Positions 2,579-17,437 of a DNA stretch of 21,210 nt are shown piece after piece (within the stretch, counting starts at the first letter, position 1; every line of letters starts with the position of its first letter). The stretch is from a virus, in the IMG/VR virus record IMGVR_UViG_3300044511_000043, positions 1-21,210 of that record, one strand, 5' to 3'. A model generated the notes under the pieces. That model worked only from the letters and a program-made list of their open reading frames with translations, was not told the origin of the DNA and did no database searches. A program made the translations under genes and the position numbers.

Positions 2579-2799
2579 TGTTGCCGTGCCCGTTCTGCGG
2601 CCTGACCGACAAAGACACTGTGCCAAACATGGGACTCGTGCCCGCCGTGGCCATACACAGCTACCCCCAAGGCTATAGGGTCGAGTGTGAAGGGTGCGGC
2701 TGTGACGGCCCGTGGCATCACCAACACTCGGAAGCAATCGCCGTGTGGAATCGCAGGCCGAACGTCCCAGCTCATACTACATCCTCCAATGCTTCCTAA
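2542..2799 (+). CDS. Lar-like restriction alleviation / zinc-ribbon protein
   Basis: 85 aa. LLPCPFCG at about 13-20, CEGCGCDGP at about 50-58 and EAIAVWNRR at about 64-72 reproduce the Lar family signature: two CxxC pairs and a closing EAI..WNRR. Rac-prophage Lar enhances host methylation and so reduces restriction of phage DNA. A link to the DNA methyltransferases downstream would make sense, but many Lar-like proteins have no tested role. It overlaps the upstream stop (ATGA), and its end overlaps the methyltransferase start by 11 bases. Confidence 0.75.
   Translation: MNTPNDKTGGCSLLPCPFCGLTDKDTVPNMGLVPAVAIHSYPQGYRVECEGCGCDGPWHHQHSEAIAVWNRRPNVPAHTTSSNAS
2757..2785 (-). other. attC-like half-site (left arm only)
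   Basis: GCCGAAC (2757-2763), six-base spacer, GCT, CATACT matches the pattern and resembles the left arm of the complete site at 7744. No complementary right arm was found before the methyltransferase gene. The AAC is in frame with the Lar-like ORF. Confidence 0.33.
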
Positions 2800-3493: not shown

Positions 3494-3696
3494 TTGCACG
3501 CCATCAACACGAACACGAAGTCATCAATGCCCGAGAATATCCCGGCACGCGCCAACTGTGCACGATCTGCGACGAGCCAACGGAGCGATGCGAGGAAGAC
3601 GCCATCTACACGGAGGATGACGAAGGACCGCTTTGCGTAGAATGTTGGCGCAAAACGCCGGAATACATTCTGGAGAACGCTGGAACTGAGCGATGA
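3490..3696 (+). CDS. Small zinc-ribbon-like hypothetical protein
   Basis: 68 aa, acidic, with CTICDEPTERC (24-34) and CVEC (49-52), a probable one-zinc ribbon. Both ends overlap neighbours by ATGA. The last residues LENAGTER are encoded by the left arm of the complete attC-like site at 3672, with Asn-Ala in the common frame. No family assigned. Confidence 0.6.
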   Translation: MIARHQHEHEVINAREYPGTRQLCTICDEPTERCEEDAIYTEDDEGPLCVECWRKTPEYILENAGTER

Positions 3697-3769
3697 GTGC
3701 CCCTCTACCAACGTCCGAACCTGCAAGCCGCGTCGCGGGGCACTCATTCGCTCCAGTGACTGGTTCTGC
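3672..3769 (-). other. attC-like integron recombination site 1
   Basis: Left R box GGAGAAC (3672-3678), right R box GTTCTGC (3763-3769). The left stem ACT-GAGCGA-TGAGTGCCCC (3685-3703) pairs with 3737-3755. The right arm carries two extra bases (C and T on the + strand), six pairs apart. Spacers next to the R boxes do not pair. The minus strand reads AAC..., with GCGTT at its far end, as in known attC sites, so the site is assigned to the minus strand. Confidence 0.8.
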
Positions 3770-4571
3770 GGCACGGTCGAAATACAAGACCATCGTAGCC
3801 GACCCTCCGTGGCCCATTGGAAACTTCCCCGCATGGTTTGCCAAAGAGCGTCGAAGCAAGCGCGAGCGTGAAATCGGCGTGAACCCGACGCCATACAAGA
3901 CGATGACGCTACCTGAAATCGAACGCCTGCCAGTCGGGGACATCGCGGCAGACGGGGCGCATCTCTATCTGTGGACAACCGATAACTTCTACGAGGATGC
4001 GCTCGGTGTGGCGCGAGCGTGGGGCTTCGAGAAATCGGCAACGCTGGTCTGGTGCAAGAAGCCAATGGGGAAAGGAATGGGCGGGACGTATCCAAGCAAC
4101 GTCGAGTTCGTGCTGTTCTGTCGGCGCGTGGACAACCGTGGGTGGAAGCAATTCGGGGAATGGCTGCGCGAACGCCGGACGGCGGCGGGACTGACGACCG
4201 GCCAAGTGTGCGCGGCAATCGGGGCACATGGGGCGATGAACCACGGCGGGATGCAAAGCAACTGGGAAAACGGTCTGGCTGTGCCGTCGCTGGAGCAATG
4301 GGCAAAGCTGAAACCGATGCTCGGCGTGAACGGAGAGACGGACGGATGGCTCGAAAGCCTGCAAATCGAATCGGGCAACCGCGCCGATAGCCGGTGGTAT
4401 CAGTGGGCGCGTGGCAAACACTCAGCCAAGCCAGAAGCCTTTCAGGACATCGTGGAGCAAGTAAGCCCCGCTCCGCGAATCGAACTCTTTGCGCGACGGC
4501 AGCGCATCGGGTGGGACTCATGGGGCAACGAATGCCGGAACGACGTGGCGCTAGTGCCGCAGAACGCATAA
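3693..4571 (+). CDS. MT-A70 family DNA adenine methyltransferase with HTH insertion
   Basis: 292 aa. YKTIVADPPWPIG holds the catalytic DPPW (37-40) of the MT-A70 family. The usual fold continues with PYKTMTLPEIERLPV (67-81), HLYLWTTDNF (90-99), LVWCKKPMGKGMGGTYPSNV (118-137) and EFVLFCRR. At about 150-225 an XRE-like helix-turn-helix (FGEWLRERRTAAGLTTGQVC; NWENGLAVPSLEQWAKLKPM) interrupts the domain. It then resumes with GKHSAKPEAF and RIELFARRQRIGWDSWGNE (262-280). It probably methylates N6 of adenine in phage DNA. ATG 3693 lies inside attC-like site 1, so the first 22 residues are encoded by that site; GTG 3756 is an alternative start. It ends in PQNA at site 2. Confidence 0.88.
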   Translation: MSAPLPTSEPASRVAGHSFAPVTGSAARSKYKTIVADPPWPIGNFPAWFAKERRSKREREIGVNPTPYKTMTLPEIERLPVGDIAADGAHLYLWTTDNFYEDALGVARAWGFEKSATLVWCKKPMGKGMGGTYPSNVEFVLFCRRVDNRGWKQFGEWLRERRTAAGLTTGQVCAAIGAHGAMNHGGMQSNWENGLAVPSLEQWAKLKPMLGVNGETDGWLESLQIESGNRADSRWYQWARGKHSAKPEAFQDIVEQVSPAPRIELFARRQRIGWDSWGNECRNDVALVPQNA

Positions 4572-4658
4572 GGTGACTGACCGACATGAGCGCCACTGAT
4601 GCCAGCCTCGCCCCTGACTGTCCCGCTCATGGCGGTTCAGTCCACCGGCTTGTTCTGC
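4559..4658 (-). other. attC-like integron recombination site 2
   Basis: R boxes GCAGAAC (4559-4565) and GTTCTGC (4652-4658) are fully complementary. The inner stem GGT-GACTGA-CC...CATGAGCG pairs with CGCTCATGG...TCAGTCCACC. Two extra bases sit on the right arm, six pairs apart, with one mismatch in the distal stem. The spacers (gcataa / ggctt) do not pair. The loop is about 30 bases. It holds the stop of the MT-A70 gene and the start of the next gene. Confidence 0.85.
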
Positions 4659-5329
4659 CGGGGGTGGAGCTGTATTGCGGGGACTGCCGGGAAATCATGC
4701 CAACACTGGCAAGCGTGGATGCCTGCATCACTGACCCGCCCTATGGAATCGCTTATGATCCGAGCGAAAGCACGCAGCAGGGAATCCAACGCTTCGCAAT
4801 GGTGATCGGAGACGATGAAGTCTTCGACCCGGCACACCTAATGGACTTCCCAGATGTAATCATGTGGGGTGCAAACAACTACTGCCACGCCATCCCGCCA
4901 AGGATCGGCCAATGGTATTTTTGGGATAAGGTGACACAAAACGCACTCAAGGTGAGAATTGCCGAAGGCGAATACGCTTGGCACAAGAAAGGCACAAAAC
5001 CCCGCGCATTCCGCCACTTGTGGAGCGGTGCATACCGCGCCAGCGAATCCGGCGAGCGTGCTGTGCATCCGACGCAAAAACCAGTAGTGCTCATGCAATG
5101 GTGCATGGACTCCATGAAGCTACCAGAAGGTTCCGTGGTGCTCGATCCCTACATGGGCAGCGGATCAACAATCATCGCTGCAATCCGCACCGGGCGGAAA
5201 GCAATCGGCATAGAGAAAGACCCGGAACACTTCAAAAACGCCGTGGAACGGATCAAGCGTGAACTCGCGCAAGGCGATCTATTCCTTGGGCAGAACGCCT
5301 CTGGTGACTCACCGCCGTTCGGCGGTTGA
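4586..5329 (+). CDS. DNA methyltransferase, beta class
   Basis: 247 aa. VELYCGDCREIMPTL (27-41), DPPYGIAYD with catalytic DPPY, WGANNY, HPTQKP, and the SAM motif DPYMGSGST followed by AIGIEKDPEHF give a PF01555 beta-class enzyme. It parallels the one at 2789-3493 but is clearly divergent. ATG 4586 has AAGGTGA ten bases upstream; the first 26 residues run through attC-like site 2 and look unstructured. GTG 4664 (VELYCGDC) is an equally plausible start. The C-terminus (GQNASGDSPPFGG) is encoded by site 3 and the stop lies inside that hairpin. It is expected to methylate adenine-N6 or cytosine-N4 in DNA. Confidence 0.88.
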   Translation: MSATDASLAPDCPAHGGSVHRLVLPGVELYCGDCREIMPTLASVDACITDPPYGIAYDPSESTQQGIQRFAMVIGDDEVFDPAHLMDFPDVIMWGANNYCHAIPPRIGQWYFWDKVTQNALKVRIAEGEYAWHKKGTKPRAFRHLWSGAYRASESGERAVHPTQKPVVLMQWCMDSMKLPEGSVVLDPYMGSGSTIIAAIRTGRKAIGIEKDPEHFKNAVERIKRELAQGDLFLGQNASGDSPPFGG

Positions 5330-5348
5330 GTCCACCGACTTGTTCGAC
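5290..5348 (-). other. attC-like integron recombination site 3 (compact)
   Basis: R boxes GCAGAAC (5290-5296) and GTTCGAC (5342-5348). The stem GGT-GACTCA-CCGCCG closes with a TTCG loop and pairs with CGGCGG-T-TGAGTC-C-ACC, leaving two extrahelical bases on the right arm six pairs apart. At 59 bases it is the size of a classic 59-base element. The dam-like gene begins 11 bases after it. Confidence 0.85.
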
Positions 5349-5359
5349 CTCTTCATATT

Positions 5360-5842
5360 ATGGCAAGACTCCGAAAACAGTTTGAATCCGCAACCGTCGA
5401 ATGGCCGACACCGGACAGTCTATGGAAGCCGCTCCATGATGAGTTCGGCTTCACGCTCGACGTGTGCGCAACTGACGAAAACGCCAAGTGTTCGCGATAC
5501 TATACGCGCCACGACGATGGACTGGTGCAACCATGGTCCGGTGTGTGCTGGATGAATCCTCCGTATGGCCGGGAAATGGTCGCCTGGCTGAAACGCGCCG
5601 AGTCTGAGAAAGCCAATGGGGTGACGACGGTTGCGCTGATACCATCGCGGACAAATACCGGATGGTGGCATGACATCGTGATGCCCAATGAAGTCCGCTT
5701 CGTGCGGGGTCGTCCGAAATTCGGAAACGCAGATCAAGGATTGCCTTGGCCCCTCGCCGTGGTGGTTTTTCGGTCGAACGCCCTTCGTCAGCCGCCCCTA
5801 CCGGCTGGCGGGAACACACCAACTAAAGACGCGGCCCGGTAG
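5360..5842 (+). CDS. Phage DNA N6-adenine methyltransferase (PF05869, Dam type)
   Basis: 160 aa, the usual size for this phage family. Key segments are EWPTPDSLWKPLHDEFGFTL (14-33), DVCATDENAKC (34-44), WMNPPYG with the catalytic NPPY (64-70), MVAWLKRAESEKANG, and the closing ALIPSRTNTGWWHD. It methylates adenine N6 in DNA with SAM. The start ATG follows attC-like site 3 directly and has no Shine-Dalgarno. The last about 20 residues (SNALRQPPLPAGGNTPTKDA) come from translation into site 4. The enzyme core ends before them, so the tail is probably dispensable. Confidence 0.9.
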   Translation: MARLRKQFESATVEWPTPDSLWKPLHDEFGFTLDVCATDENAKCSRYYTRHDDGLVQPWSGVCWMNPPYGREMVAWLKRAESEKANGVTTVALIPSRTNTGWWHDIVMPNEVRFVRGRPKFGNADQGLPWPLAVVVFRSNALRQPPLPAGGNTPTKDAAR

Positions 5843-5868
5843 GGGTTGGCTGCACGAACTTGTTCGAC
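5773..5868 (-). other. attC-like integron recombination site 4
   Basis: R boxes GTCGAAC (5773-5779) and GTTCGAC (5862-5868) are perfectly complementary. The stem CGT-CAGCC-g-CCCCTACCGG pairs with CCGGTAGGGG...GGCTGCACG near 5837-5856. An unpaired G/C-type base and an A-type bulge with a neighbouring mismatch lie on the right arm, at the same spacing as in the other sites. Spacers do not pair. The dam-like stop (5840-5842) is inside. Confidence 0.82.
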
Positions 5869-5874
5869 ATTTTT

Positions 5875-6111
5875 ATGACACGCTCCCCACAATCAGACGC
5901 CGCCGCAAACGGTGCGAATGCTAAAGAAGAACTTTACAACATGTCGTGCCGCCTTGAGCGCGAAAACGCGAAGCTGCGGGACGCTTTGCAGCGACTCGTG
6001 GACACCCACGGCAATTGCAACTGTGGAGTTTCCGACACGGAGCTTGCGGCATGGGATCACGCACGAATTATTCTGTCTAACGCACAAGCTGAGGCACCAT
6101 CATACGCATGA
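5875..6111 (+). CDS. Small coiled-coil hypothetical protein
   Basis: 78 aa from ATG 5875, the first ATG after attC-like site 4. A TTG at 5860 inside the R box would add five residues. EELYNMSCRLERENAKLRDA and LQRLV (about 22-46) form a short predicted coiled coil, then CNCG and the helix TELAAWDHARIILSNA. Short proteins of this style are frequent in phage accessory regions without known function. The C-terminal SNAQAEAPSYA is encoded by a half-site at 6075. The stop overlaps the next ATG (ATGA). Confidence 0.55.
   Translation: MTRSPQSDAAANGANAKEELYNMSCRLERENAKLRDALQRLVDTHGNCNCGVSDTELAAWDHARIILSNAQAEAPSYA
6075..6105 (-). other. attC-like half-site (left arm only)
   Basis: GTCTAAC (6075-6081), spacer gcacaa, GCT, GAGGCA matches the left-arm pattern. 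It is most similar to the half-site at 2500 (shared CTGTCTAACGC and GAGGCAC). No right arm was found downstream. Confidence 0.4.
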
Positions 6112-6416
6112 CAACGACAAAAGAAAAGACCACGGCGGAATACGCGACGTGTTCGGGCTTGGAGCGTCTGCACACGCTGAGGGCTCTACCGGAAGACATC
6201 GCCCTTATTCGCGATCAAAACCCGCGGCAACGGGAACTCCATGACGGGCGTCCGGTTGTTGGCTGGCCTAAATGGGCAAAGGATGACCTCCGAAGCGTCA
6301 TCCGCTACCGTTTGGCCCTCACTGGCGGCGATGTGTCTGCGTGGGCTCCAGTTCCGTTGGCGTATTCTGGCTCTGTGTCAGAAGTCGAAGGAAATTCAAA
6401 CCACAAACTACCATGA
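6108..6416 (+). CDS. Hypothetical protein, 102 aa
   Basis: Starts MTTTKEKTTAEYATCSGLER by ATGA overlap with the preceding gene. The middle is basic and tryptophan-containing (VVGWPKWAKDDLRSVIRYRL). The tail from about residue 80 (APVPLAYSGSVSEVEGNSNH) is low in structure. I recognise no family. Just after its stop, sequence homologous to the MT-A70 gene begins. The ORF could therefore have been altered at its 3' end by the event that created the remnant. Confidence 0.45.
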   Translation: MTTTKEKTTAEYATCSGLERLHTLRALPEDIALIRDQNPRQRELHDGRPVVGWPKWAKDDLRSVIRYRLALTGGDVSAWAPVPLAYSGSVSEVEGNSNHKLP

Positions 6417-6540
6417 GTTCTGCGGCACGGTTAGGTGCAAAGACCATCTGCCCGCAGGAAGCGCCACGGATGGGCTTCATGGGGCAACGAAATCACCCCG
6501 GATGTGGAAATCCATTCGCCGCAGAACGCACAAGCTGAAT
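6417..6540 (+). pseudogene. Internally deleted, frameshifted MT-A70 methyltransferase remnant
   Basis: GTTCTGCGGCACGGT at 6417-6431 is identical to 3763-3777 in the MT-A70 gene, and AAGACCATC matches again at the same spacing. At about 6449 the sequence jumps to the gene's last part: in another frame 6450 onward reads ARRKRHGWASWGNEITPDVE and then SPQNAQAE, matching ARRQRIGWDSWGNE...PQNA. The catalytic domain and HTH insert are missing and the halves are out of frame. It ends in attC-like site 5. A 41-codon ORF at 6413-6538 is only a by-product. Confidence 0.75.
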
Positions 6541-6578
6541 CACACCATTCGAGCGTTGATTCCAGTGCCTTGTTCGTC
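6521..6578 (-). other. attC-like integron recombination site 5
   Basis: Left R box GCAGAAC (6521-6527), right R box GTTCGTC (6572-6578), pairing over GAAC/GTTC. The stem GAATCA pairs with TGATTC, with flanking CT/AG pairs and two extrahelical bases on the right arm six pairs apart. Site length is 58 bases. R-box outer pairs are imperfect, so it is slightly weaker than sites 2-4. Confidence 0.72.
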
Positions 6579-6618
6579 CCCGTTTCGACTGACTGCGCAA
6601 AATAAAATAAATTGCGTA

Positions 6619-6647
6619 TTGACACAATTAGCAGCCCATGCAATACT
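6619..6647 (+). promoter_or_regulatory. Putative sigma-70-type promoter inside a cassette
   Basis: TTGACA (6619-6624), 17-base spacer, AATACT (6642-6647), preceded by TGC giving an extended -10. It is 67 bases upstream of the 6714 gene and just downstream of attC-like site 5, in an AT-rich stretch. Only the sequence match supports it. Confidence 0.45.
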
Positions 6648-6713
6648 CACCTCGTTCCACAAAGGAACAACGTCCCGGCGTCTCCGGCACAACTCAGCAT
6701 AGAATACAAGCTC

Positions 6714-7277
6714 ATGAACACCACACCAGACAACCGACTCATTAACGCAACTTCCTTGACCTTCGCGCTGCGCGACAAGCTCTCTAACAGAGCCGCAAGC
6801 TGGGCGGCTGTCGAAATATGTAAAGCCTGGGGGTTGCCATTCAATGGCGGGCGCGCGCAAAAACACAAGGAACATGTCGCTAAGTATGGACCCCAGGGAA
6901 GCGGTAAAGCCAGAGCCGTGGTCGAGCATTGCGTGAAGCTGCGCAAGCCGCGCACTCTCGAACGTTTCGCCGAACAGTTGGAGACCTTTGCTGACCGTCC
7001 ACGCGGTAACGGAACTGTAGAGCACAAAGTCGCTGCCTACATTATAGCAGATGACGGTTGGACCGGAGAAGCGGGTGGGTTTGCCAGCATTCCAATGTCT
7101 ATTTATTGCGCACATTCAGACGACTCAAGCCTCGCCGCGCCAGCGGCAGAGTTGCTAGACTTCACTCAACTTCAGGAGTTCATGTGCCACTGCCCAGGAG
7201 CAAATGGAGAAACGCTTATCTGGTTTCGCTCGGCTGGCGACATGCGCATTGGAGACGGTTTTGGAATTACCAAGTAG
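6714..7277 (+). CDS. Hypothetical protein, 187 aa
   Basis: ATG 6714 is preferred to the upstream in-frame codon at 6612 because it follows the putative promoter. The N-terminal half is basic and helical (ALRDKLSNRAASWAAVEICK, later GGRAQKHKEHVAKYGPQGSG), suggesting nucleic-acid contact. The second half is more acidic (YIIADDGWTGEAGGF; AHSDDSSLAAPAAELLDFTQ) and ends with ETLIWFRSAGDMRIGDGFGI. I recognise no family, catalytic motif, signal peptide or membrane segment. It is followed closely by an RHH-like gene (ATG two bases after the stop). Confidence 0.6.
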   Translation: MNTTPDNRLINATSLTFALRDKLSNRAASWAAVEICKAWGLPFNGGRAQKHKEHVAKYGPQGSGKARAVVEHCVKLRKPRTLERFAEQLETFADRPRGNGTVEHKVAAYIIADDGWTGEAGGFASIPMSIYCAHSDDSSLAAPAAELLDFTQLQEFMCHCPGANGETLIWFRSAGDMRIGDGFGITK

Positions 7278-7279
7278 GA

Positions 7280-7504
7280 ATGAACTCAGAACCAACACGC
7301 GGAGCGCCTCCAAAACGGGGCGCTACCGCCTCTGCCGTCATAAATGTTCGCGTCGATGCGGACCGCAAAAACCATTACACTCGCTTCGCAAAAAAGCGCC
7401 GTGATGGCGACAAGACACTCGCTGGCCTCGTGATCGATACGCTCGATGCGGCGACTGGCTACCGCGAGGCGGCTAACGTCCCGGATCAGATACGCGAGGA
7501 CTAA
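7280..7504 (+). CDS. Ribbon-helix-helix-like small protein
   Basis: 74 aa from ATG 7280, with TAGGA just upstream. The pattern INVRVDADRKNHYTRFAKKR, then KTLAGLVIDTLDAA, resembles a beta-strand plus two helices of the Arc/MetJ (RHH) fold. Such proteins act as dimeric DNA-binding regulators or antitoxins. The N-terminal 18 residues (MNSEPTRGAPPKRGATAS) look disordered and basic. Its start is two bases from the previous stop, so co-expression with the 187-aa protein is likely. Whether it represses the promoter at 6619 is not shown. Confidence 0.55.
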   Translation: MNSEPTRGAPPKRGATASAVINVRVDADRKNHYTRFAKKRRDGDKTLAGLVIDTLDAATGYREAANVPDQIRED

Positions 7505-7507
7505 AAT

Positions 7508-7756
7508 ATGGAAAACACGACAGACGATCTGCGAGCGTTATCTGCATCCGGTTTGTTCGGCCCCGTTGGACGCCATCCGTGGGTCAATGAAGCCGGGATA
7601 GTGGACGCCGCAAAGGCCGGAACCTGGGTAGCAAACATCATCCTCATGGCAGGAGGATCGCCAAAGACTGCCTTCGCTTGTGCGCTTGAAGTGGCGACAG
7701 ACATCACTGACAACCCCGCCAAGTTCAAAGACTTTGCGCCTTGGCCGAACGCATAA
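7508..7756 (+). CDS. Hypothetical protein, 82 aa
   Basis: Good Shine-Dalgarno (GAGGA) upstream of ATG 7508. Sequence features are LFGPVGRHPWVNEAG, then the mildly hydrophobic helix WVANIILMAGGSPKTAFACA and DNPAKFKDFAPWPNA. The helix is amphipathic rather than a convincing membrane span. The ORF ends with WPNA and a TAA inside attC-like site 6. It is the third gene of the cassette that has its own promoter. No family recognised. Confidence 0.6.
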   Translation: MENTTDDLRALSASGLFGPVGRHPWVNEAGIVDAAKAGTWVANIILMAGGSPKTAFACALEVATDITDNPAKFKDFAPWPNA

Positions 7757-7831
7757 GCTCATGGACGCCGACCTATTCACTCCGATTCAAGATGGACGCT
7801 CATCGGCGTTCCATGCAGCGACTTGTTCGCG
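7744..7831 (-). other. attC-like integron recombination site 6
   Basis: R boxes GCCGAAC (7744-7750) and GTTCGCG (7825-7831) pair over CGAAC. The stem GCT-CATGGA-CGCCGA pairs with TCGGCG-T-TCCATG-C-AGC: two extrahelical bases on the right arm exactly six pairs apart. Read on the minus strand it begins GCGAACAAGTCGCTGCA and ends GCTTATGCGTTCGGC, the arrangement of classic attC sites. It is the best match of the set. Confidence 0.88.
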
Positions 7832-8480
7832 GTTGGAGTCTGTGCGGATGGGCCGAGATTCAGAACTCTTAGATGACATGCTGGACTTCTACGCTCCCGC
7901 CGCAAAACGGATCATAGACGTGTGCTGCAATCGGCGGAAGATGTGGAAGGGAACGCGATGGGGCAGCGAGGTGACGTGCTACGACATCAACCCCGAAGTG
8001 ATGCCCGACGTGGTGACAGGGTGGCATGAACTACCCGACCCTGACGGATCGGTGGACGTGCTATGCTACGACCCGCCGCACCTGCCAGCCGCCGCCGCAA
8101 CTCAGGCAAGCCTCAAGCAATACGTCACCGACTACGGGCTGGAGCAAACCTGCGGAGGCGACAATGTGGCCGCGCTGCATCTGCCGTTCCTGGCCGAAGC
8201 GAAGCGAGTGCTCCGCCCCGATGGTCTGATCTTCGCCAAGATCAAGGACTACATCCACAATCACCGCTACCAGTGGAATCTGGAATACTTCAACGCTGCC
8301 GTGCGTGCTGTCGGGCTGACACCGTGCGACCTGATAATCAAACGTGACCCGTGCGGCGGGAATCTCAAGAGTGGCCGATGGAAGACGGCACACCACGCCA
8401 AGAACTGCCACTGCTATTGGGTAGTGGTCAGGAATGGGCGTTGCGAACCGCGCACAGTTTCTTCCGCGAACAAGGATTAG
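7761..8480 (+). CDS. Predicted SAM-dependent methyltransferase (probable DNA or small-molecule target)
   Basis: 239 aa from ATG 7761 inside attC-like site 6, or 210 aa from ATG 7848 just after it; the latter keeps the whole domain. IIDVCCNRRKMWKGTRWGSE is a motif-I-like SAM loop. VTCYDINPEVMPDVVTGWHE, then LPDPDGSVDVLCYDPPHLP supplies a DPPH in the motif-IV position. FLAEAKRVLRPDGLIFAKIK is the typical Rossmann strand 5 region. It resembles phage class I methyltransferases with a DPPHL motif. Substrate is uncertain. The C-terminal SANKD has an Asn codon within GCGAAC, hinting at one more degenerate site. Confidence 0.72.
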   Translation: MDADLFTPIQDGRSSAFHAATCSRLESVRMGRDSELLDDMLDFYAPAAKRIIDVCCNRRKMWKGTRWGSEVTCYDINPEVMPDVVTGWHELPDPDGSVDVLCYDPPHLPAAAATQASLKQYVTDYGLEQTCGGDNVAALHLPFLAEAKRVLRPDGLIFAKIKDYIHNHRYQWNLEYFNAAVRAVGLTPCDLIIKRDPCGGNLKSGRWKTAHHAKNCHCYWVVVRNGRCEPRTVSSANKD

Positions 8481-8524: not shown

Positions 8525-8566
8525 TGAGCGCTTGATATTATTTGCGCTCACACTAAATTAGTGTGA
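8525..8566. promoter_or_regulatory. Two overlapping palindromes at a putative late promoter
   Basis: TGAGCGC (8525-8531) pairs with GCGCTCA (8544-8550). TCACACTAAATTAGTGTGA (8548-8566) is a perfect palindrome about a central A. They share TCA, so the two hairpins exclude each other. A weak promoter, TTGATA (8532-8537), 16-base spacer, TAAATT (8554-8559), overlaps them. This suggests an operator controlling the virion module. Confidence 0.45.
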
Positions 8567-8577
8567 CGACTGATACC

Positions 8578-8955
8578 ATGCCTAAACTCAACCAACGTCA
8601 GCTATTATTTTGCGAGGCACTGCTTGCCGGTGCTTCGCAGGCTGAGGCCTATCGGCGCGCTGGTTACTCGCCTGTTCGAGCCGAGTCGAAGGCTGCTGAG
8701 CTAGTGCGAACCCCTGCTGTTTCAAGCTATTTATCCGCAAAGAGGGCAAAGAGCGAACAAGCTGGCGAGTTCTTGCGAGAAGATGCTTTGCGACTGCTGC
8801 ACCATTTGGCCACATCTGGCGACACGTCTAGCAGTCGCGTTGCTGCCATTGCTCAAGCTGCGAAAATGCAGGGCTGGAACGCTGCCGAGAAGCAAGAGCA
8901 TAGCGTCTCTGACAACTTGGCCGCTCTTCTCGCCAAAGTGCGAGGCCGGGCATGA
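8578..8955 (+). CDS. Terminase small subunit
   Basis: 125 aa from ATG 8578. A GTG at 8563 would add five residues but lies inside the palindrome. LNQRQLLFCEALLAGASQAE, then AYRRAGYS (4-31) and LVRTPAVSSYLSAKRAKS match the Terminase_2 (PF03592) N-terminal HTH, which recognises phage DNA. LLHHLATSGDTSSSRVAAIA and QAAKMQGWN form the usual oligomerisation region. In the packaging complex it selects the pac/cos site and passes DNA to the large subunit, whose ATG overlaps this stop (ATGA). Confidence 0.85.
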   Translation: MPKLNQRQLLFCEALLAGASQAEAYRRAGYSPVRAESKAAELVRTPAVSSYLSAKRAKSEQAGEFLREDALRLLHHLATSGDTSSSRVAAIAQAAKMQGWNAAEKQEHSVSDNLAALLAKVRGRA

Positions 8956-10574
8956 TCACGGCAGCGGAGAGGGCTGAATGGGATCGTAGGTCCGCCAAGG
9001 ACAGACCTGACGCTGAGGCACTAGCGGACCCGCTTTGGCGTCTGGCGTGGCTCTACACGTGCAAGCACGGCGCAAAAATGGTGCCTTTTCGTCCGACTGA
9101 AGAGCAGGTCGAAGTGATCATTTGCATCCACTTGAGAGGCTGGCGCAAGCTCATAATACCCAAAGCGAGACAGCTCGGTATGAGCACGGTTCTAGCCCTG
9201 ATATGCCTGGACATGTGCCTCCACATTGCCGGGTTTAAGGCCGCGCTGGTGGACAAGACGGCAGCGGACGCTGCCACAAAGCTCGACGAGAAAATTGAAC
9301 AGGTCTGGAATGGGCTACCGGAAGAGTATCGAGCCGCATACACCACGCCGAAGGGGTATGCACCTGGGGGCATGGCTTGGAAGGTTGGCGAGGACGATGT
9401 GAGCGTTTTTGAAGCGGGTGCTGGCTTTCGTGGCGGAACGCTGCAATTCGCGTGGATTAGTGAATGGGGATGGATTCAGGCGAATGACGCCAGCCGCTCG
9501 AATGAAATTCTAACCGGGACGCTGCCAGCCGCAGAGCTTGGCATCACAGTGGTCGAAACAACTTGGGCAGGCGGTAAGTCTGGCGACGTGTGGACTCTGG
9601 TTGAAGAAGCTTTGAACACGCATGAAGCGGAAAAGGGGCCGGATAGCTGGCGCATCCTTTTCTTTGGCTGGCATTCGTGCTCGGCTTACACTACCGAACA
9701 CGGCTACGTTGACGACGCCAGCGCGGAGCTACTGGCCAAGACTGAGGCAAAGCTTGACTTCACGTTCACTGATGGTCAAAGGCGTTGGTATGCGGCGCAA
9801 CGTCGCAAATACAAGCGCCAGATTTTCGGCGAGTATCCCAGCACGCTCGACGAGTGTTGGTATGCGCCTGTGGAGGGCAGCATTTACGGCGAGGAACTGG
9901 ACATGCTACGCACGGCTGGAAGGCTTTGCGCCCGTCCAGCCCTGCTGAATCATTTGCCTTTGTTCACATGGTCAGACTTGGGCATAAGAGACACCGGCAT
10001 CTTGCTCCTGGCGCAACCTGCTGGAACTGATATCCATGTTCTCGACTACCACGCCGCAGAGGGCGAGCCTGCGAGCTATTGGGCAGGCGCGATAATGCGA
10101 TGGGAACAGGAATACAAAGTCATTATGAGGCATTTTTTGCCACACGATGCAAACAGGCGGAGCCTGAATGACGCTGCGAGCTACGTCGAAACGCTGGCAA
10201 AGCTGGGCATTAAGAACACCGAAGTCTTGCCAATGACTCACACGGTATGGTGGGGCATTGGCCTTTTGCGTGACATGCTGCCGCGAATGGCCTTTCATGA
10301 ACGCTGCTCACAGCCTTGGAAAGATGGCACCGGCAAAGAGCGAATGAGCTTGGTTGCTGCCCTGGAAGTCTATCGTAAGCGGACCAATTCCAGCGGCAAA
10401 GTCGTCAATGACGAGCCATTGCACGACGAGGCGAGCAATTACGCTGATGCCGTGCGCTACTTAGCCGAAAGCCTCGCCCGTGGTGTGGTGCCCACGTCTG
10501 AGAAAATCGGGCGAGACGCGGGACGCGACAAGGCAAGGGCAAGGCTAAAAGCGACGATGCAAGTTGGCGGTTGA
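8952..10574 (+). CDS. Terminase large subunit
   Basis: 540 aa, normal length. The ATPase domain has the Walker-A-like KARQLGMST (71-79), Walker B with catalytic Glu FAWISEWG (167-173), and coupling motif VETTW (201-205). The RNase H-like nuclease carries TWSDLG (D342), PHDANRR (D399) and DEASNYADAVRY (about 492-503), the expected acidic triad. It cuts concatemeric DNA and pumps it into the prohead through the portal. The start overlaps the small-subunit stop by ATGA. The portal gene that usually follows is absent. Confidence 0.93.
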   Translation: MITAAERAEWDRRSAKDRPDAEALADPLWRLAWLYTCKHGAKMVPFRPTEEQVEVIICIHLRGWRKLIIPKARQLGMSTVLALICLDMCLHIAGFKAALVDKTAADAATKLDEKIEQVWNGLPEEYRAAYTTPKGYAPGGMAWKVGEDDVSVFEAGAGFRGGTLQFAWISEWGWIQANDASRSNEILTGTLPAAELGITVVETTWAGGKSGDVWTLVEEALNTHEAEKGPDSWRILFFGWHSCSAYTTEHGYVDDASAELLAKTEAKLDFTFTDGQRRWYAAQRRKYKRQIFGEYPSTLDECWYAPVEGSIYGEELDMLRTAGRLCARPALLNHLPLFTWSDLGIRDTGILLLAQPAGTDIHVLDYHAAEGEPASYWAGAIMRWEQEYKVIMRHFLPHDANRRSLNDAASYVETLAKLGIKNTEVLPMTHTVWWGIGLLRDMLPRMAFHERCSQPWKDGTGKERMSLVAALEVYRKRTNSSGKVVNDEPLHDEASNYADAVRYLAESLARGVVPTSEKIGRDAGRDKARARLKATMQVGG

Positions 10575-10598
10575 CATATCGACTAATATCGTCATAGT
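10571..10598 (+). promoter_or_regulatory. Putative promoter upstream of the capsid gene
   Basis: TTGACA (10571-10576), 16-base spacer, CATAGT (10593-10598), overlapping the end of the large terminase gene. It would give a leader of about 135 bases before the capsid ATG. Consensus match only. Confidence 0.35.
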
Positions 10599-10612
10599 TG
10601 CCACGTCGACCC

Positions 10613-10675
10613 GGCCCGCAAGGCTTACCGGAGTTGATCGCCAGCGAACTGTGACAGGCCCGTAAGGCTTACCGG
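10613..10675 (+). repeat. 19-bp direct repeats in the capsid leader
   Basis: GGCCCGCAAGGCTTACCGG (10613-10631) recurs as GGCCCGTAAGGCTTACCGG (10657-10675), one mismatch, 44 bases apart. They lie in the 167-base gap between large terminase and capsid, which has no gene. They could belong to a structured leader, be a protein-binding site, or mark a deletion scar. Confidence 0.85.
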
Positions 10676-10741
10676 CAGAGGCGAAGTCAGTAGAAGGCCA
10701 CTAGCGAGGCCGGATACACAAACTTCCATCACTCTACCGCT

Positions 10742-11611
10742 ATGCCCATTGAAAGTCACTATACTACGCAGTTTTCAACCAACTGGATTCATCGCATCCA
10801 GCAGACCAAGCAACGCCTTGGCGCTTTTATCGAGTGGGACAACTTTGACGGCGAGCGCAAACGCTATGACCGTATCGGCTCCATGTCGAGCCAGGCAAAG
10901 ACCGAACGCAACGCGCCTACGCCGATTCAAGAAGCGTCTTTCGATAGCCGCTGGGCTGTTCGTCAAGAATTCAACATGGGCAATATCCTCGACAAGAAGG
11001 ATTCCAAAAAGCTCGGTCAACTTGTCCTCCCGACAAGCGACTACGTGAAGCAGCACGCCAACGAATATCATCGCAATTGTGATGATGTGATGTGGAAAGC
11101 TGCCCTTGCCGCTGTGCCTACCGGCAAGGATGGTTCTGGCTCGTCTGCTCTGCCGGAAGCGCAAAAGGTGGCGCATGGGTCCAAGAATCTCAACGTCGCC
11201 AAGCTCATTCAGATCAACGAAATTTTTGACGACGCTGACTTGGAAGACGAAGCGCCCCGCGTCATGCTGGTGACTGCTAAGCAGCTTTCGAGCCTTCTGA
11301 GCACTACCAAAGTCACAAGTGCCGATTACGCCGCCGTGAAGGCTCTGGTGAACGGAACCATTGATACCTTCATGGGCTTCAAGTTTGTGAAGATCAAGCG
11401 ACTTCCGAAGACCGGCAACATTCGCACGTGTGTTGCCTTCGCCAAGGGCTCCATTCGCGGTTTCATGGGCGCGAAAGAGACTGACATCGCGGAGCGCAAA
11501 GACCTGTCCAACGCCATTCAGATTTATTCTGAATGGGACCTCGGCGCAGTGCGCGTTCACGACGAGAGCGTTGTTTCTTTCGAGTGCGACGAATCTGTGA
11601 CCGGCGATTAA
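10742..11611 (+). CDS. Major capsid protein
   Basis: 289 aa. Position after the terminase, size, and segments HYTTQFSTNWIHRIQQTKQR (6-25), a viral-capsid-like N-terminus, DDVMWKAALA, LIQINEIFDDADLEDEAPRV (about 155-174) and VTAKQLSSLLSTTKVTSADY identify a short phage capsid protein of the HK97-like 'phage capsid protein' type. IRGFMGAKETDIAERKDLSN near the end is typical. It forms the icosahedral shell. No Shine-Dalgarno precedes ATG 10742, which is odd for the most abundant virion protein. No separate scaffold gene is visible. Confidence 0.82.
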   Translation: MPIESHYTTQFSTNWIHRIQQTKQRLGAFIEWDNFDGERKRYDRIGSMSSQAKTERNAPTPIQEASFDSRWAVRQEFNMGNILDKKDSKKLGQLVLPTSDYVKQHANEYHRNCDDVMWKAALAAVPTGKDGSGSSALPEAQKVAHGSKNLNVAKLIQINEIFDDADLEDEAPRVMLVTAKQLSSLLSTTKVTSADYAAVKALVNGTIDTFMGFKFVKIKRLPKTGNIRTCVAFAKGSIRGFMGAKETDIAERKDLSNAIQIYSEWDLGAVRVHDESVVSFECDESVTGD

Positions 11612-11630: not shown

Positions 11631-12080
11631 ATGCCTACTACCAAGTCAACCCATTACACAGCACAAGAAGCTGCGGAGCTTGACAGCTCCAAGCTTGTCA
11701 GTCCATCCGGCAGTCTGGAGTTTCGCCAGATTGTATATCCGCTTGTTGGAACCGAAGCAGCGAATGACATCATCAAGCTTGCCAGGCTGCCCATTGGAAC
11801 CACGATCATCCCGGCGCTCTGCTCGGTGCTGTGCGAAGACCCAGGCACTACGCTGACTCTGGATATTGGGACGGCAGAAGACACGGACGGCCTGGCAGAT
11901 GGAATCGTTCTTTCCGCTGGAGGTCTGGTAAACTTCTGCTCTGGCACCGTTCCGGCGTTTGGCCTCACCAAGACGCCAATCGCTTCGCGTGACCTCCAGG
12001 CAGTCGTTGCCAGCGCCAACACGCTGACCGCAGGCGCGAAGCTGGTGTTCAACCTCGCCTACACGCCAGCCCGCTACTAG
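11631..12080 (+). CDS. Small head protein (probable decoration or head-stabilising protein)
   Basis: 149 aa, mostly predicted beta: LPIGTTIIPALCSVLCEDPG, then TTLTLDIGTAEDTDGLADGI, VLSAGGLVNFCSG and TAGAKLVFNLAYTPARY. Phages with this capsid type often carry a protein of this pattern (LTLDIGD..DxDRYADGI...AGAKI) straight after the capsid gene. Its exact role is not certain; a decoration or head-fibre-like role is inferred from position. The start lacks a Shine-Dalgarno. A hairpin terminator follows the gene, so capsid and this protein probably share a strong transcript. Confidence 0.6.
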   Translation: MPTTKSTHYTAQEAAELDSSKLVSPSGSLEFRQIVYPLVGTEAANDIIKLARLPIGTTIIPALCSVLCEDPGTTLTLDIGTAEDTDGLADGIVLSAGGLVNFCSGTVPAFGLTKTPIASRDLQAVVASANTLTAGAKLVFNLAYTPARY

Positions 12081-12140: not shown

Positions 12141-12749
12141 ATGACAGACCTTCAACTCTGCAACTTGGCCCTTGCTCGTTTGGGTGAGGCGCGCGTCTAT
12201 GATTTGACTGAAGACCAGTTTGTGGCGGTACAGTGCGCCCGTCAGTTTCCGCTTGCCGCTGAAGAGGTGCTTCGCTCTCATCGGTGGAATTTTGCAAGCG
12301 CGAGAGTTGCCCTATCTCGTCTCGCGGAGGCTCCGGCCTTTGGCTTCAAATATGCTTACGCGCTGCCGACCGATTGTCTGCGGGTGCTTGAAGTGAACGG
12401 TGTGAGCGGAGCCGGTGAACCCGGCGCGGAATGGGAGATCGAAGGCCGTGCGCTGCTGACTGACGAAACCAGCGTCAAAGCCATCTACATCAAACGGGAA
12501 ACAAACCTGATGTATTGGGATTCGCTCGCCATTGAATGGCTCGTTTTGGCGCTGGCTGCGAAGCTAGCGCCCACGATTCAGGGGGGTAGCACAAGCAAGG
12601 CCAATGAGCTGCGAGAAGAGATTAACCGGCTTGCTGCTCCGCTGGCTCGTCGGATCGACGCCAATGAGAGCAAACGTGAAAACGCGAACAGCATGGAGAT
12701 GCTGCTGAATTCAAGCCGCACAATCTACGCAAGGGGGGTGGGGCTGTGA
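12141..12749 (+). CDS. Tail tubular protein A-like adaptor
   Basis: 202 aa, close to T7 gp11 (196 aa). LQLCNLALARLGEARVYDLT (4-23), then VAVQCARQFPLAAEEVLRSH and RWNFASARVAL are the signature of this family. FKYAYALPTDCLRVLEVNG and AIYIKRETNLMYWDSLAIEW follow. It forms the ring between portal and tail nozzle. The stop overlaps the GTG start of tail tubular B. The presence of this adaptor makes the missing portal gene more striking. Confidence 0.9.
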   Translation: MTDLQLCNLALARLGEARVYDLTEDQFVAVQCARQFPLAAEEVLRSHRWNFASARVALSRLAEAPAFGFKYAYALPTDCLRVLEVNGVSGAGEPGAEWEIEGRALLTDETSVKAIYIKRETNLMYWDSLAIEWLVLALAAKLAPTIQGGSTSKANELREEINRLAAPLARRIDANESKRENANSMEMLLNSSRTIYARGVGL

Positions 12750-15700
12750 GCGTTCATGTTTTGAAAGTTTCGTTCAACGCAGGCGAATTGCACCCGCTAA
12801 TGGATGCGCGCACGAACGTGGAAAAGTATGAGACGGGATGCCGCAAGCTTCGTAATTTCGTGATACAACCACAAGGGCCAGCGTCTCGAAGGCCGGGCAT
12901 GGAGTTCATTGGAATGCAGGGCGACTCGACAACGGCAAGCCGCTTCGTCGAGTTCAATTACTCTGCCACGACTCGCTTTTTGATCGAAATGAGCAACGGT
13001 CTATTTAGGTTCTGGTCTAACGGCGCGCTTGTCCCCGTGACCGCTCCGCATCCATATGATCCAAGCGAGTTCTTCCAAGTCCAGGTTAAACAAGTCAACG
13101 ATGTTTGTTACTTCTGCCACCCGAATCATCATCCGCTGAAGCTTTCTAGATTGTCAGATACAAAATGGAAGTCCGAAGAGCTGCCGTTGCGTTACCCCCC
13201 CTTGCTTGACGAGTATGTGCCAAAGGAGACGGTAGCAACGCCAGATGTGACAACGCTGCACACGCAACCTTTGGAGATGGCCCCAGAGTTCACGGTGACT
13301 GCTGCCAGCACATCAGCAAGCATCCCAACTTTTACCGTTGCCGCTCCAGCCGTGGGCAATCGCTGGTTTGATCTGACATGGAGCTGGCCAAACGGCGCTG
13401 ATACGGCAACGAAGACGCTGACCATGGAAATACGGAAGCATGATGGAACATGGGTGAAGTTCGCGACGCCCAACATTACGCTATCGACAACCACAACTCC
13501 ACCGGTCCCAACGGATTGGAAGTTTCGCGCCAATGGCCGCAATTTGCTACGATCAACCAAAGCTTCATCGTCGGGGACTTGGGGCGCTGAAACATCCATC
13601 GTCAATTTCTTCCAGAACGGGTTTAGCGGACAGCCCGCAAGTCTGACCTTCAGGTTTGTGGTTGGCGCTGTCACGACCTCAATTCGCGATGATCATGTTT
13701 GCCATGTGACGCCACACACAGGCAGCGTGGTCAATGTGCCCATGTCGCCCATCATCACGACGCCTGTCACTGCTGACATCGTTTCGACTTACAACTTGCC
13801 GAATCCTACGCCTGCCGGTCGCTCGATGGCATACGAGCTGCTCAATAACGGCGTCTGGCAACCCTTCTTCGCCACGTCGCTGGTTTATGGTATGTCGCCG
13901 CAAACGCTGCGCATCCGAGATACCGCGCTTGGCAAGCCGGTGCTGGAAATGAAGCAGGAAAATGGCGCTTGGGTAGCGCAAGGCGCGTTGCTCACAACGC
14001 CAACGGTTCAAACGTCCTGGCGTATGCGCGTGCGCTATGTAACGACTACTACCTCCGCCATGCTAGGCAATGTCACGTTAAGCGGTGCTGTCTCGCATGT
14101 GGCCAAGCTCGAAGCCAACAAATCGGGCGACAACGATCAAGGCAAAGGCGGTGTGACCGTGCCAGCCGGGCAATGGCAAGCCCGTGTTACAATTGGCAAC
14201 GTCGCCGTGCCTGCTGGGGCTAAAGCAACTCTTCAGAAGTGGAATGGGACAGCGTGGGCCAATGTGCGAGGATCATGGACACTTGCGGCCAACGCAACGT
14301 TTGCATTTGACGGCACAACAACCGGAGCGCTCAAGGCACCTACTCTAATGCGCGTGCTGTATGAGCCGGGCATTACAGGTCTGGCCACGCTTGCAAATGC
14401 CGTGTTTGAGTCGCTTGTCTATCCGCCTAGCGAAGCCATCACGGTAAGCGTCAACAACACTTCAGGCGACAATCGAACGATGACCGCAAGCTCTGCCATC
14501 TTCAAGCCTGAGCATGTCGGCGCATTCTGGCAAGTGGCACACAGGCGGGATTTGTCATACACCGAAATTGTCGGCACCGTTGGCGACTTGGTAACGCTGA
14601 CAAGCTCAGAACTGCGCATTGTAGGCGGCTACGACATTTACACTTATGGCACGTGGAAGGGTAAGCTGTTCCTGGAACGCAAGAACAATGCTAACGTTTG
14701 GGAGATATTGCGCGTCTGGACAAGCAACAAAGATCGCAATGTTCAGGTTCACGCCGAATCCGACACTGATTCAGACTTTCGACTGAGGCTCGAAGACGGG
14801 GCCATTGGCTATGCCGCAAGTGATGCCGCCGTGCCGCGTTTTCTGATTGAAGCCAGTGATGCGCGGACCTATGGCCTTGTGAAGGTTGTTAGCACAAAGG
14901 TTAGGCTTTCAACGCCAGCGCCGGGTGAAACGGGTTACGCATGGGAAGACGGCGTTGAAGGCGTGGATTGGGAATACTCGGACACCGTGGCACGGGTGAA
15001 CATCATCCGCGCTCTGGCCAGCCAAGACGCAACGCCGCTTTGGGCTGAGGGCGCATGGTCTGACGTTCGCGGCTACCCTGCAGCCTTAGGATTGCATGAA
15101 CAGCGGATTTGGTTTGGAGGATCGAAGCATCAGCCTCAAACGCTGTGGGCTTCCGTGGTGGGGGATTTCGAGAACTTCCGCCGTGGAACCAATGATGACA
15201 GCTCCATCACCCTCACTCTTGCTGCCGAAGCGTCCAACTCAATTCGCTGGTTGTCTTCCGCTCCGGGCGCGCTGCTGGTTGGCACAGGCGGGGACGAGTG
15301 GGCAGTCAAACCGCAAGCGGACGGGCCGTTGACGGCTTTTTCTGCCCGTGGCGAAGTGCAGTCGTCTTATTCATCCGCGCAACTGCCAGCGAAGCGCGCC
15401 AATGACGTGACGCTATTTGTCCAACGGGATGGCCGTCGAATCCGGCAGATGGCCTATGCGCAGGGGCAGGAAGGGTTTGTTGCGTCTGACATTACTGTTT
15501 TAGCTTCGCACATCACCAAGAGCGGAATCAAGCAACTTGCGTTCCAGCAGGCACCACAGGCAATTATTTGGTGTGTGACAAATGCCGGGAAGCTGGTCGG
15601 CATGACGTTTGAAAAGGATCAGAATGTTTTTGGCTGGCATCAGCACGACACGGACGGACACATTGAAACGATAGCGCTGCTTCATGGGACGCCCTCCGAT

Positions 15701-16327
15701 GAGCTTTGGCTGGGCATTCGCCGGACGATCAACGGTCAAACCGTGCGCACGGTTGAGCGAATAATCATTGTCGAAGATTACGATTCACACGCGGGATTGA
15801 TCTACCTCGATGGCGCGGTGAAGTCGCAGTCTGTGAGTGCCCGCACGTCAATTACCGGCTTAGGACACTTGGAAGGCAAAACGGTTTCGGTGATGATCAA
15901 CGGCGCTGTTTTCCCTTCCGCTGTCGTCACTGGCGGGGCCGTGCAAGTCGCCGTGCCAGCCAATCAAATAGCCGTTGTCGGCTTGCCTTACGAGTCGATT
16001 TTGCAACCCATGAGGCAAGAAGTGCCTCAGCAGGATGGGACTAGCCAGGGGCGTAAGTTCAAGCTGGTCGATGTCGTCGCCCGTGTTTACCAGTCACTTG
16101 GCGGTGAACTCTCGGCAAACTGTGACGATGAAAGGCTAATGTGGTCAACGCTTGGCCTTGCGTCATTGCAGAACAACGATGGGCCTCCTGTTCTTCTGAC
16201 CACGGAAAGAAAGGTTAAACTGGAGTCCAGGTATGAAGCATCAGTCAATGTAGCCATACGCTCTTCTTCACCATTCCCTCTAACTCTGACAGCCTTAACC
16301 CTAAGCTTTGATATTTATGGACAATGA
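12746..16327 (+). CDS. Tail tubular protein B-like nozzle protein, enlarged
   Basis: 1193 aa, about 400 longer than T7 gp12 (794 aa). The GTG start follows a strong AAGGGGGG. The N-terminus FNAGELHPLMDARTNVEKYE, then CRKLRNFVIQPQGPASRRPG (10-51) is the family hallmark, as is ALGLHEQRIWFGGSKHQPQT, then LWASVVGDFENFRRG around 780-815. Between them, at about 180-570, lies a Thr/Ser/Val-rich beta region with repeated ...PAGxxAxLQKWNGTAWxxVRGSW-like strands, probably inserted Ig-like or beta-sandwich domains. It forms the DNA exit channel of the short tail. Confidence 0.9.
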   Translation: MSVHVLKVSFNAGELHPLMDARTNVEKYETGCRKLRNFVIQPQGPASRRPGMEFIGMQGDSTTASRFVEFNYSATTRFLIEMSNGLFRFWSNGALVPVTAPHPYDPSEFFQVQVKQVNDVCYFCHPNHHPLKLSRLSDTKWKSEELPLRYPPLLDEYVPKETVATPDVTTLHTQPLEMAPEFTVTAASTSASIPTFTVAAPAVGNRWFDLTWSWPNGADTATKTLTMEIRKHDGTWVKFATPNITLSTTTTPPVPTDWKFRANGRNLLRSTKASSSGTWGAETSIVNFFQNGFSGQPASLTFRFVVGAVTTSIRDDHVCHVTPHTGSVVNVPMSPIITTPVTADIVSTYNLPNPTPAGRSMAYELLNNGVWQPFFATSLVYGMSPQTLRIRDTALGKPVLEMKQENGAWVAQGALLTTPTVQTSWRMRVRYVTTTTSAMLGNVTLSGAVSHVAKLEANKSGDNDQGKGGVTVPAGQWQARVTIGNVAVPAGAKATLQKWNGTAWANVRGSWTLAANATFAFDGTTTGALKAPTLMRVLYEPGITGLATLANAVFESLVYPPSEAITVSVNNTSGDNRTMTASSAIFKPEHVGAFWQVAHRRDLSYTEIVGTVGDLVTLTSSELRIVGGYDIYTYGTWKGKLFLERKNNANVWEILRVWTSNKDRNVQVHAESDTDSDFRLRLEDGAIGYAASDAAVPRFLIEASDARTYGLVKVVSTKVRLSTPAPGETGYAWEDGVEGVDWEYSDTVARVNIIRALASQDATPLWAEGAWSDVRGYPAALGLHEQRIWFGGSKHQPQTLWASVVGDFENFRRGTNDDSSITLTLAAEASNSIRWLSSAPGALLVGTGGDEWAVKPQADGPLTAFSARGEVQSSYSSAQLPAKRANDVTLFVQRDGRRIRQMAYAQGQEGFVASDITVLASHITKSGIKQLAFQQAPQAIIWCVTNAGKLVGMTFEKDQNVFGWHQHDTDGHIETIALLHGTPSDELWLGIRRTINGQTVRTVERIIIVEDYDSHAGLIYLDGAVKSQSVSARTSITGLGHLEGKTVSVMINGAVFPSAVVTGGAVQVAVPANQIAVVGLPYESILQPMRQEVPQQDGTSQGRKFKLVDVVARVYQSLGGELSANCDDERLMWSTLGLASLQNNDGPPVLLTTERKVKLESRYEASVNVAIRSSSPFPLTLTALTLSFDIYGQ

Positions 16328-16727
16328 ATTGCTAAGCGTAAGAGAACTTGAACCTTCTGAGCATCCCATGGTATCCGCGTGGGCGCGGGCACATGGCTGC
16401 GGAAAGTTTGATCCTCGCTTGCTGCCTGCAAATCGCTTCTTTGCAGTATGCGTTGACGGTAATCCGGTTATGGTCGCGGCTCTACACTTTCTTGTGGGGG
16501 TGGGCGTGGCCATGCTGGATCATTCATTCAGCGTGCCGGGGTTGAGCCTGCGCAATGCGCGCCGGGCAAGCGCCGCCTTGGTAGATGTAGCCAGCGATAT
16601 TGCTGCGCAAAACAATTGCGGTGTGCTACAAATGTTCGTGCCTTCAGGTATCGCAAGGGTAGCTAAAACGCTGGGTTTCCAGGAGCAAGACAACAACCTT
16701 CACTTCATGACCAAGCAATGTCTGTAG
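16317..16727 (+). CDS. gp13-like internal virion protein (GNAT-like)
   Basis: 136 aa from ATG 16317, overlapping the tail tubular B stop by 11 bases; a TTG at 16308 would add three residues. T7 gp13 (138 aa) has the same position and size. SVRELEPSEHPMVSAWARAH and FAVCVDGNPVMVAALHFLVG, and the end GIARVAKTLGFQEQDNNLHF resemble a reduced acetyltransferase fold. It may help assemble the virion core rather than catalyse. A true acetyltransferase cannot be excluded. Confidence 0.6.
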   Translation: MDNELLSVRELEPSEHPMVSAWARAHGCGKFDPRLLPANRFFAVCVDGNPVMVAALHFLVGVGVAMLDHSFSVPGLSLRNARRASAALVDVASDIAAQNNCGVLQMFVPSGIARVAKTLGFQEQDNNLHFMTKQCL

Positions 16728-17437
16728 TATCCGCAGTCGCAACCGTCGTAGGCGCTGGCATCAGCGCTTACTCGCTCTACCAGCAGGGCAGGGCAAGTGA
16801 TGTTATGGGCCGTTACAACGCCCATCAGCAAGAGCTGAACGCCAAAATGCAGCTTATGCAAATGCTGGCGGAAAGCAATGCGCGCAAAAAAGCCGCTGAG
16901 GCTGAATTCGCACTTCGCAGCCAAGAAGCACAGGCCAAGTTTGCCAACGCGAAGACCATTGAAAATCAGGTGGCGGGAACGTCGGCGGCGGCTCGCGAGA
17001 CGGCTCGAAGGAAGACGGAAGAATATCAGCGGTTCATGGGCACACAGCGCGCCAACATCGCAGCAAGCGGGTTCGTGGAAAGCAGCGGGACGCCTCTCGA
17101 CCTATTGGCAGAGACAGCAAGCAAGATTCAGCTTGAGCGCGAGGACTCGCTTTATCAGGACGAAATGAATCGCCGGTCAATGTTCCGCGAAGCTGACCTT
17201 GAGCGCCTGGGGGGGCATTTAGCCCTTGCCGGTGCCTCGTTGGATCGTAACAGCGCGCTTGTGGGAGCCGGTATGCAAGCAGCAGCGGGCCTCGCCGATT
17301 ACCGCAGGGGGCTGCGTGAGGCCGAGATTACCCGGCTGACAGGTCAGAATAACCGCTATGCCGCGAACATTGGGGCAGTTGGAACCATTATCAGCGGCGT
17401 CTCAAGCGGAGCTTCACAATACGCATCCATCAAATAA
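16718..17437 (+). CDS. gp14-like internal virion protein
   Basis: 239 aa. A hydrophobic N-terminal helix (VVSAVATVVGAGISAYSLYQ, 2-21) is followed by long Ala/Glu/Lys-rich coiled coil (QQELNAKMQLMQMLAESNAR; KKAAEAEFALRSQEAQAKFA). Next comes the characteristic ANIAASGFVESSGTPLDLLA segment (about 113-132) and a Gly/Ala-rich C-terminus (IGAVGTIISGVSSGASQYAS). In T7 gp14 is ejected first and forms a pore in the outer membrane. It overlaps the previous gene by 10 bases. Confidence 0.8.
   Translation: MSVVSAVATVVGAGISAYSLYQQGRASDVMGRYNAHQQELNAKMQLMQMLAESNARKKAAEAEFALRSQEAQAKFANAKTIENQVAGTSAAARETARRKTEEYQRFMGTQRANIAASGFVESSGTPLDLLAETASKIQLEREDSLYQDEMNRRSMFREADLERLGGHLALAGASLDRNSALVGAGMQAAAGLADYRRGLREAEITRLTGQNNRYAANIGAVGTIISGVSSGASQYASIK

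Follow-up and report, generated by a model that had tools for sequence, protein, structure and literature searches.

In tailed phages, the gene order terminase-portal-scaffold-capsid is among the most reliable known, and it is used both for annotation and for judging the completeness of a genome. The stretch of DNA analysed here (the window: an entire 21,210-base IMG/VR record, classed as a linear viral fragment and thus less than a whole genome) departs from this order. The gene for the large terminase subunit (TerL) ends at position 10574 and that for the major capsid protein begins at position 10742, leaving a gap of exactly 167 nt (10575–10741) where portal and scaffold would be expected. 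Where, then, are these two genes? The original prediction offered three answers: that the portal lies elsewhere, that it is highly divergent and fused, or that it was removed by a deletion, either natural or the result of assembly collapse at repeats within the gap.

The features of the gap on which that prediction was built stand. TerL (8952–10574) and capsid (10742–11611) are adjacent genes on the plus strand, and the plus strand of the gap between them contains no open reading frame of 50 aa or more. The two direct repeats (10613–10631 and 10657–10675) are identical at 18 of 19 bases; when the window was shuffled 100 times with dinucleotides preserved, two such 19-base matches never occurred (mean 0.02). 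No further copy was found in the rest of the window, nor, allowing three mismatches, in the contig that continues it (L175, see below). The repeats are thus confined to the gap, and the idea that they are operators spread over the genome was rejected.

The window phage is a temperate-looking podovirus of the T7/HTVC010P type, with a virion module encoded on the plus strand. The gene for the small terminase subunit (8563–8955; PF03592, 3.6e-9; phrog_51, 1.5e-14) precedes TerL (phrog_2, 4.2e-16; ~30% identity to annotated phage terminases by tblastn). The capsid protein is of the HTVC010P type (PF19821, 2.4e-55; phrog_3437, 7.3e-60) and is followed, as originally described, by the other virion genes: a small virion structural protein (11631–12080; phrog_8455, 1.4e-4), tail tubular protein A (12141–12749; phrog_394, 4.2e-46), tail tubular protein B (12746–16327; phrog_376, 5.9e-172), a gp14-like internal virion protein (16718–17437; phrog_418, 3.9e-17), a second ejection or internal virion protein, recognized by its position and by homologues in relatives (17440–19308), and a third, large, gp16-like internal virion protein that is cut by the contig end (19305–21210). 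Tail tubular protein B is enlarged: it has 1193 aa against 712 profile positions in phrog_376, with the extra sequence lying N-terminal of the part that matches positions 162–710.

No portal was detected in the window, whether by a PF16510 profile search, by a portal profile able to detect the portals of relatives, or by PHROG scans of the main open reading frames (none of which was named portal). A divergent portal hidden inside the window was rejected on the strength of these searches. Because the window is a linear fragment, absence of the portal from it does not mean absence from the phage; the claim that portal and scaffold are missing holds at this junction, and for this contig only.

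The junction itself recurs elsewhere. Contigs from two other assemblies (L002, dataset 3300044956; L082, dataset 3300044957) match the window across it at 99.9%, and a diverged relative, L003, is collinear through it (protein identities of 82% for the capsid and 80% for the terminase). Both repeat positions are common to these two assemblies and to L003. The terminase also directly precedes the capsid in L004–L009 (capsid identity 44–57%), which lack these repeats. Relatives with capsid identities of ~40% or lower have the order terminase, portal, scaffold, capsid, as do Pelagibacter phage HTVC010P (KC465898) and Alteromonas phage ZP6 (Mareflavirus, MK203850). Since contigs from two further assemblies share it, as does the diverged L003, the TerL-capsid junction is, on sequence comparison, real, with neither deletion nor collapse. 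Replacement of the terminase as the cause of the missing block was rejected: HTVC010P/ZP6-type terminases (in L009, L178 and L181) and terminases of the window's type both directly precede a capsid gene.

An exact search with bases near the right end of the window found L175 (IMG/VR 3300044511_000052, dataset 3300044511; 19,331 bases). The last 127 bases of the window (21084–21210, plus strand) are identical to the end of L175, while base 128 differs; this 127-base sequence also terminates L183, a further contig from this phage. Neighbouring edges in an assembly graph built with k=127 would overlap in this way, and we infer that such is the origin of the overlap. The reading frame of the gp16-like protein runs from the window into L175, giving 2627 aa in total. 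A search for further contigs with the last internal protein of the window found nothing. The other end of L175 matches the start of the window (positions 1–131 at 97.7% over 131 bases, and 853–929 at 100% over 77 bases), and so the two contigs appear to join into a circle of about 40 kb (a size obtained by arithmetic).

It is L175 that carries the T7-type head-tail connector of this phage. Its proteins of 114, 119, 559, 89 and 287 aa, in that order, are followed by tail-fibre-like genes and, beyond these, by a Bet-like annealing protein and an exonuclease. The 559-aa protein is the portal (phrog_332, 2.9e-109; at position 12,546 of L175) and the 287-aa protein the scaffold (phrog_3742, 4.4e-30); the pair lies 6.7 kb beyond the overlap, after the internal virion proteins. 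In joined coordinates the portal occupies 27,869–29,548, ~16.3 kb after the capsid. An ordinary, separate portal protein contradicts the suggestion of a highly divergent, fused one. The join between window and L175, and with it the placement of the portal in the window phage, depends on a 127-base overlap between two separately numbered contigs.

Relatives with both genes on one contig have the same arrangement. When their full records were searched with phrog_332 (the T7-type connector family), portals were found far downstream of the capsid: in G004 (IMG/VR 3300049595_001872), capsid and portal lie at 10.6 kb and 29.4 kb; in G007 (IMG/VR 3300022305_001618), at 4.7 kb and 20.1 kb; and in G021, at 4.6 kb and 19.0 kb (same strand in each case). 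In G022 they lie at 24.9 kb and 4.2 kb, both on the minus strand. Portal and scaffold in these relatives are located 14–19 kb downstream of the capsid, with a phrog_3742 scaffold-like protein following the relocated portal. G004 and G007 share with the window phage both the relocated portal block and the TerL-capsid junction, but differ in that their capsids are only 57% and 47% identical, respectively, to that of the window; G004 carries endolysin and integrase genes after the scaffold. In a portal tree (a quick search, with some forks open), the seven relocated portals, including that of the window phage, form a single clade (SH-aLRT 99), requiring one change on the tree. With the standard order on the remaining branches, and likewise in HTVC010P and ZP6, the relocated order is most simply read as derived, apparently once.

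The genes surrounding the relocated portal reveal the extent of the moved segment. In standard-order relatives, the interval from terminase to portal contains homologues of the 114- and 119-aa proteins of L175 (for example, genes of L129 at 51% and 43% identity), and the 89-aa protein has its match in the gene behind the portal of HTVC010P. Together, homologues of these two small pre-portal genes and one post-portal gene are found at the standard place in L129, L137, L163 and HTVC010P. As homologues of all five moved genes (two small genes, portal, small gene, scaffold) fill the terminase-capsid interval of standard-order relatives, homology identifies the moved segment as essentially the whole of that interval; equivalently, two neighbouring blocks were swapped. 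The standard order is (i) TerL, (ii) two small genes, portal, small gene and scaffold, (iii) leader, capsid, tail tubular proteins A and B and internal proteins, and (iv) fibre genes; in the clade of the window phage, blocks (ii) and (iii) have changed places.

The remainder of the module is familiar. HTVC010P shares with the window phage a same-family capsid (34% identity), the phrog_332 portal, the phrog_3742 scaffold-like protein, tail tubular proteins A and B and the later virion genes, but has portal and scaffold between terminase and capsid. ZP6 agrees with the window in gene set and order from the capsid onward, down to a small acetyltransferase-annotated gene after tail tubular protein B; it differs in its standard portal-scaffold-capsid order and in belonging to another terminase group. 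The order seen here is a previously undescribed variant of the T7/HTVC010P virion module, built from known components; no paper on relocated portals in this group was found in the open-access literature.

We therefore favour, with a probability of roughly 90%, the reading that a pair of neighbouring virion-operon blocks has been swapped in this clade, such that the portal lies ~16 kb past the capsid, off the contig, and a promoter and structured leader would drive the capsid gene. Sequence comparison documents the move itself, a single origin for it in the tree, which genes were moved, and that the gap is conserved; the functions proposed for promoter and leader are predictions from consensus and conservation. 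The exchange of a five-gene block with the capsid-to-ejection block, apparently once, means that the order of these genes is not obligatory, and contigs with the swapped order should not be called defective.

Two other explanations for the absent portal were weighed against the block swap. Portal and scaffold could have been lost by a natural deletion or through collapse of the assembly at the 19-base repeats, making the window a defective element or an artefact; the presence of two near-identical repeats in the gap, and of portal and scaffold at this very place in standard relatives, speaks for such an event. This is the least probable account, and at the level of the clade it is already refuted: the junction persists in two other assemblies, in the relative with 80–82% protein identity and, without the repeats, in L004–L009, while both the relatives and the contig continuing the window bear a portal downstream. 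The portal lying elsewhere as a conserved arrangement is also the outcome that the original prediction had named as removing the deletion idea, leaving its first option, relocation, as the one borne out. Alternatively, the window phage could be a satellite that borrows a portal, with L175 belonging to another, co-occurring phage that shares only its ends through recombination. Strains do recombine here, in that the DnaT-like, ejection-protein and methyltransferase-terminase segments vary between near-identical contigs. Nevertheless, we regard a satellite as very improbable, given that L183 ends with the same 127 bases, that the reading frame is unbroken, that L175 matches the window at its two ends, and that the relocated block is present in all relatives whose contig includes both loci.

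The block swap leaves the capsid gene directly behind TerL, separated from it by a gap that is probably a sigma70-like promoter and a conserved leader. The candidate promoter, TTGACA-16-CATAGT (10571–10598, plus strand), overlaps the terminase stop codon and agrees with the consensus at 10 of 12 positions (one such promoter found, 0.4 expected in shuffles); a TTGAC-type -35 box also follows the terminase stop in L003, L004, L006, L178, L181 and L185. The putative leader RNA of the capsid mRNA (10605–10741, plus strand; ~137 bases) is 83.8% identical to that of L003, whose capsid and terminase coding sequences are 74.3% and 73.0% identical, respectively, to those of the window; the leader of L185 is 69.3% identical, against 60.6% for capsid coding DNA. 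RNAalifold, applied to the leaders of the window, L003 and L185, predicts a fold that includes six pairs with both bases changed. The window leader alone folds modestly better than its shuffles (z = -2.06).

Within this structure, each direct repeat belongs to one copy of a hairpin consisting of a 4-bp outer stem, a CC-loop-GG core and a 4-base bulge on the 3' side. Copy 1, CCGG CC(CGCAA)GG CTTA CCGG (10611–10631, plus strand), contains repeat 1; copy 2, CAGG CC(CGTAA)GG CTTA CCGG (10655–10675, plus strand), contains repeat 2 and forms three of the four outer pairs. The repeats are thus part of the conserved leader. The motif recurs, often in tandem, in many other HTVC010P-type capsid-gene leaders, where compensatory changes give other outer stems (CCGA/UCGG, UCUG/CAGA, UUCG/CGAA, GUUU/AAAC, AGAA/UUCU and others), and with bulge variants such as CUUA, ACUA, AUAA or ACAC. 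Among 64 dereplicated leaders, 20 carry it, compared with 4.2 +/- 2.0 in dinucleotide shuffles. When cores were picked by loop and bulge sequence only, all four outer pairs were present in 20 of 108 leader hits versus 40 of 2032 background hits (p = 1.6e-12, an optimistic value as hits overlap and related leaders are non-independent). Subject to the same overlap and non-independence, the odds of a perfect outer stem are 11 times as high in leaders as in the remainder of these loci. A MAFFT alignment of the mixed-length motif copies left the loops ungapped and was unusable. The motif also stands directly before the capsid gene in standard-order phages, and so, judged by this distribution, the leader is part of the capsid block and stayed with it through the swap.

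What might such a leader do? In T7, the capsid gene (gene 10) has a promoter to itself, and its leader, which contains a hairpin, promotes strong expression. In the window, the promoter is sigma70-like, of the host type, where T7 uses a T7 promoter, and the leader carries a tandem stem-bulge motif; the likeness is by analogy only. A promoter at the terminase stop would start the capsid transcript inside a long rightward virion operon, in which portal and scaffold would be expressed later; by analogy with T7, the structured leader of roughly 130 nt, with its tandem hairpins, would protect the message or promote translation, so that the virion's most abundant protein is made at a high level. We infer a function in capsid gene expression; the leader may alternatively serve autoregulation or antitermination.

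A simpler view is that the gap is an ordinary promoter plus spacer, in which repeats and hairpins are idle as RNA and serve at most as DNA operators. A sigma70-like promoter is indeed present, paired changes can arise in DNA dyads too, and Rfam has no such family (no match among 4227 models to the window up to E = 5, and only tRNAs at the gathering threshold in 16 related loci). We find this view rather doubtful: the one-sided 3' bulge, with its fairly constant sequence, suits RNA better than a DNA dyad, and the motif lies on the sense strand of 20 of 64 leaders but on the antisense strand of only 6. By a small margin over even odds, the gap instead represents a widespread cis-acting RNA motif in the capsid leaders of HTVC010P-type phages of many hosts, which would govern how strongly the capsid gene is expressed, wherever the portal block lies. 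The motif appears to be undescribed, as far as Rfam and open-access papers tell (no paper on the capsid leader was found in the latter). If this reading is true, the two blocks could swap without loss. The conserved leader is a specific candidate for what raises capsid expression far above that of neighbouring genes in podoviruses that are among the most abundant in marine and fresh waters.

Several further observations concern variation in this phage population. The second and third ejection proteins of L183 are only ~39–40% identical to those of the window (17655–21083), between flanks of 99.9–100% identity; by this comparison, ejection proteins are variable within one population. A DnaT-like primosomal gene likewise occurs in two variants (38% protein identity) with near-identical flanks, at 132–852 of the window and 78–657 of L175. 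The primosomal-like protein encoded at 106–900 contains tandem TASSPHCGSDA and HHPPPTT repeat units (430–600). Five separate DNA methyltransferase-like genes lie within 6 kb of the window (2687–8480). Between the last of these and the small terminase gene, L002 (3943–4266) and L082 (1398–1721) carry ~320 bases more than the window (8466–8471), including a 97-base copy (96%) of window positions 5775–5871.

Finally, HTVC010P-type virion genes were also observed in Akkermansia genomes (G065, G075, G084 and G092; capsid loci L260–L264, L102–L105 and L107, portal loci L114–L118 and L266–L269), where they occur singly at distant chromosomal loci. In G075, the capsid lies at 1.73 Mb, tail tubular protein B at 2.17 Mb and the portal at 2.43 Mb; G065 and G092 are similar. 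A literature search on Akkermansia and gene transfer agents found nothing relevant. The portal is accompanied by a scaffold-like gene, adjoins a divergent tail-tubular-A gene, and has a dN/dS of 0.03–0.06 across four genomes; tail tubular protein B is read through one TAG in two of these. The set suggests a domesticated virion or a gene-transfer-agent-like element.
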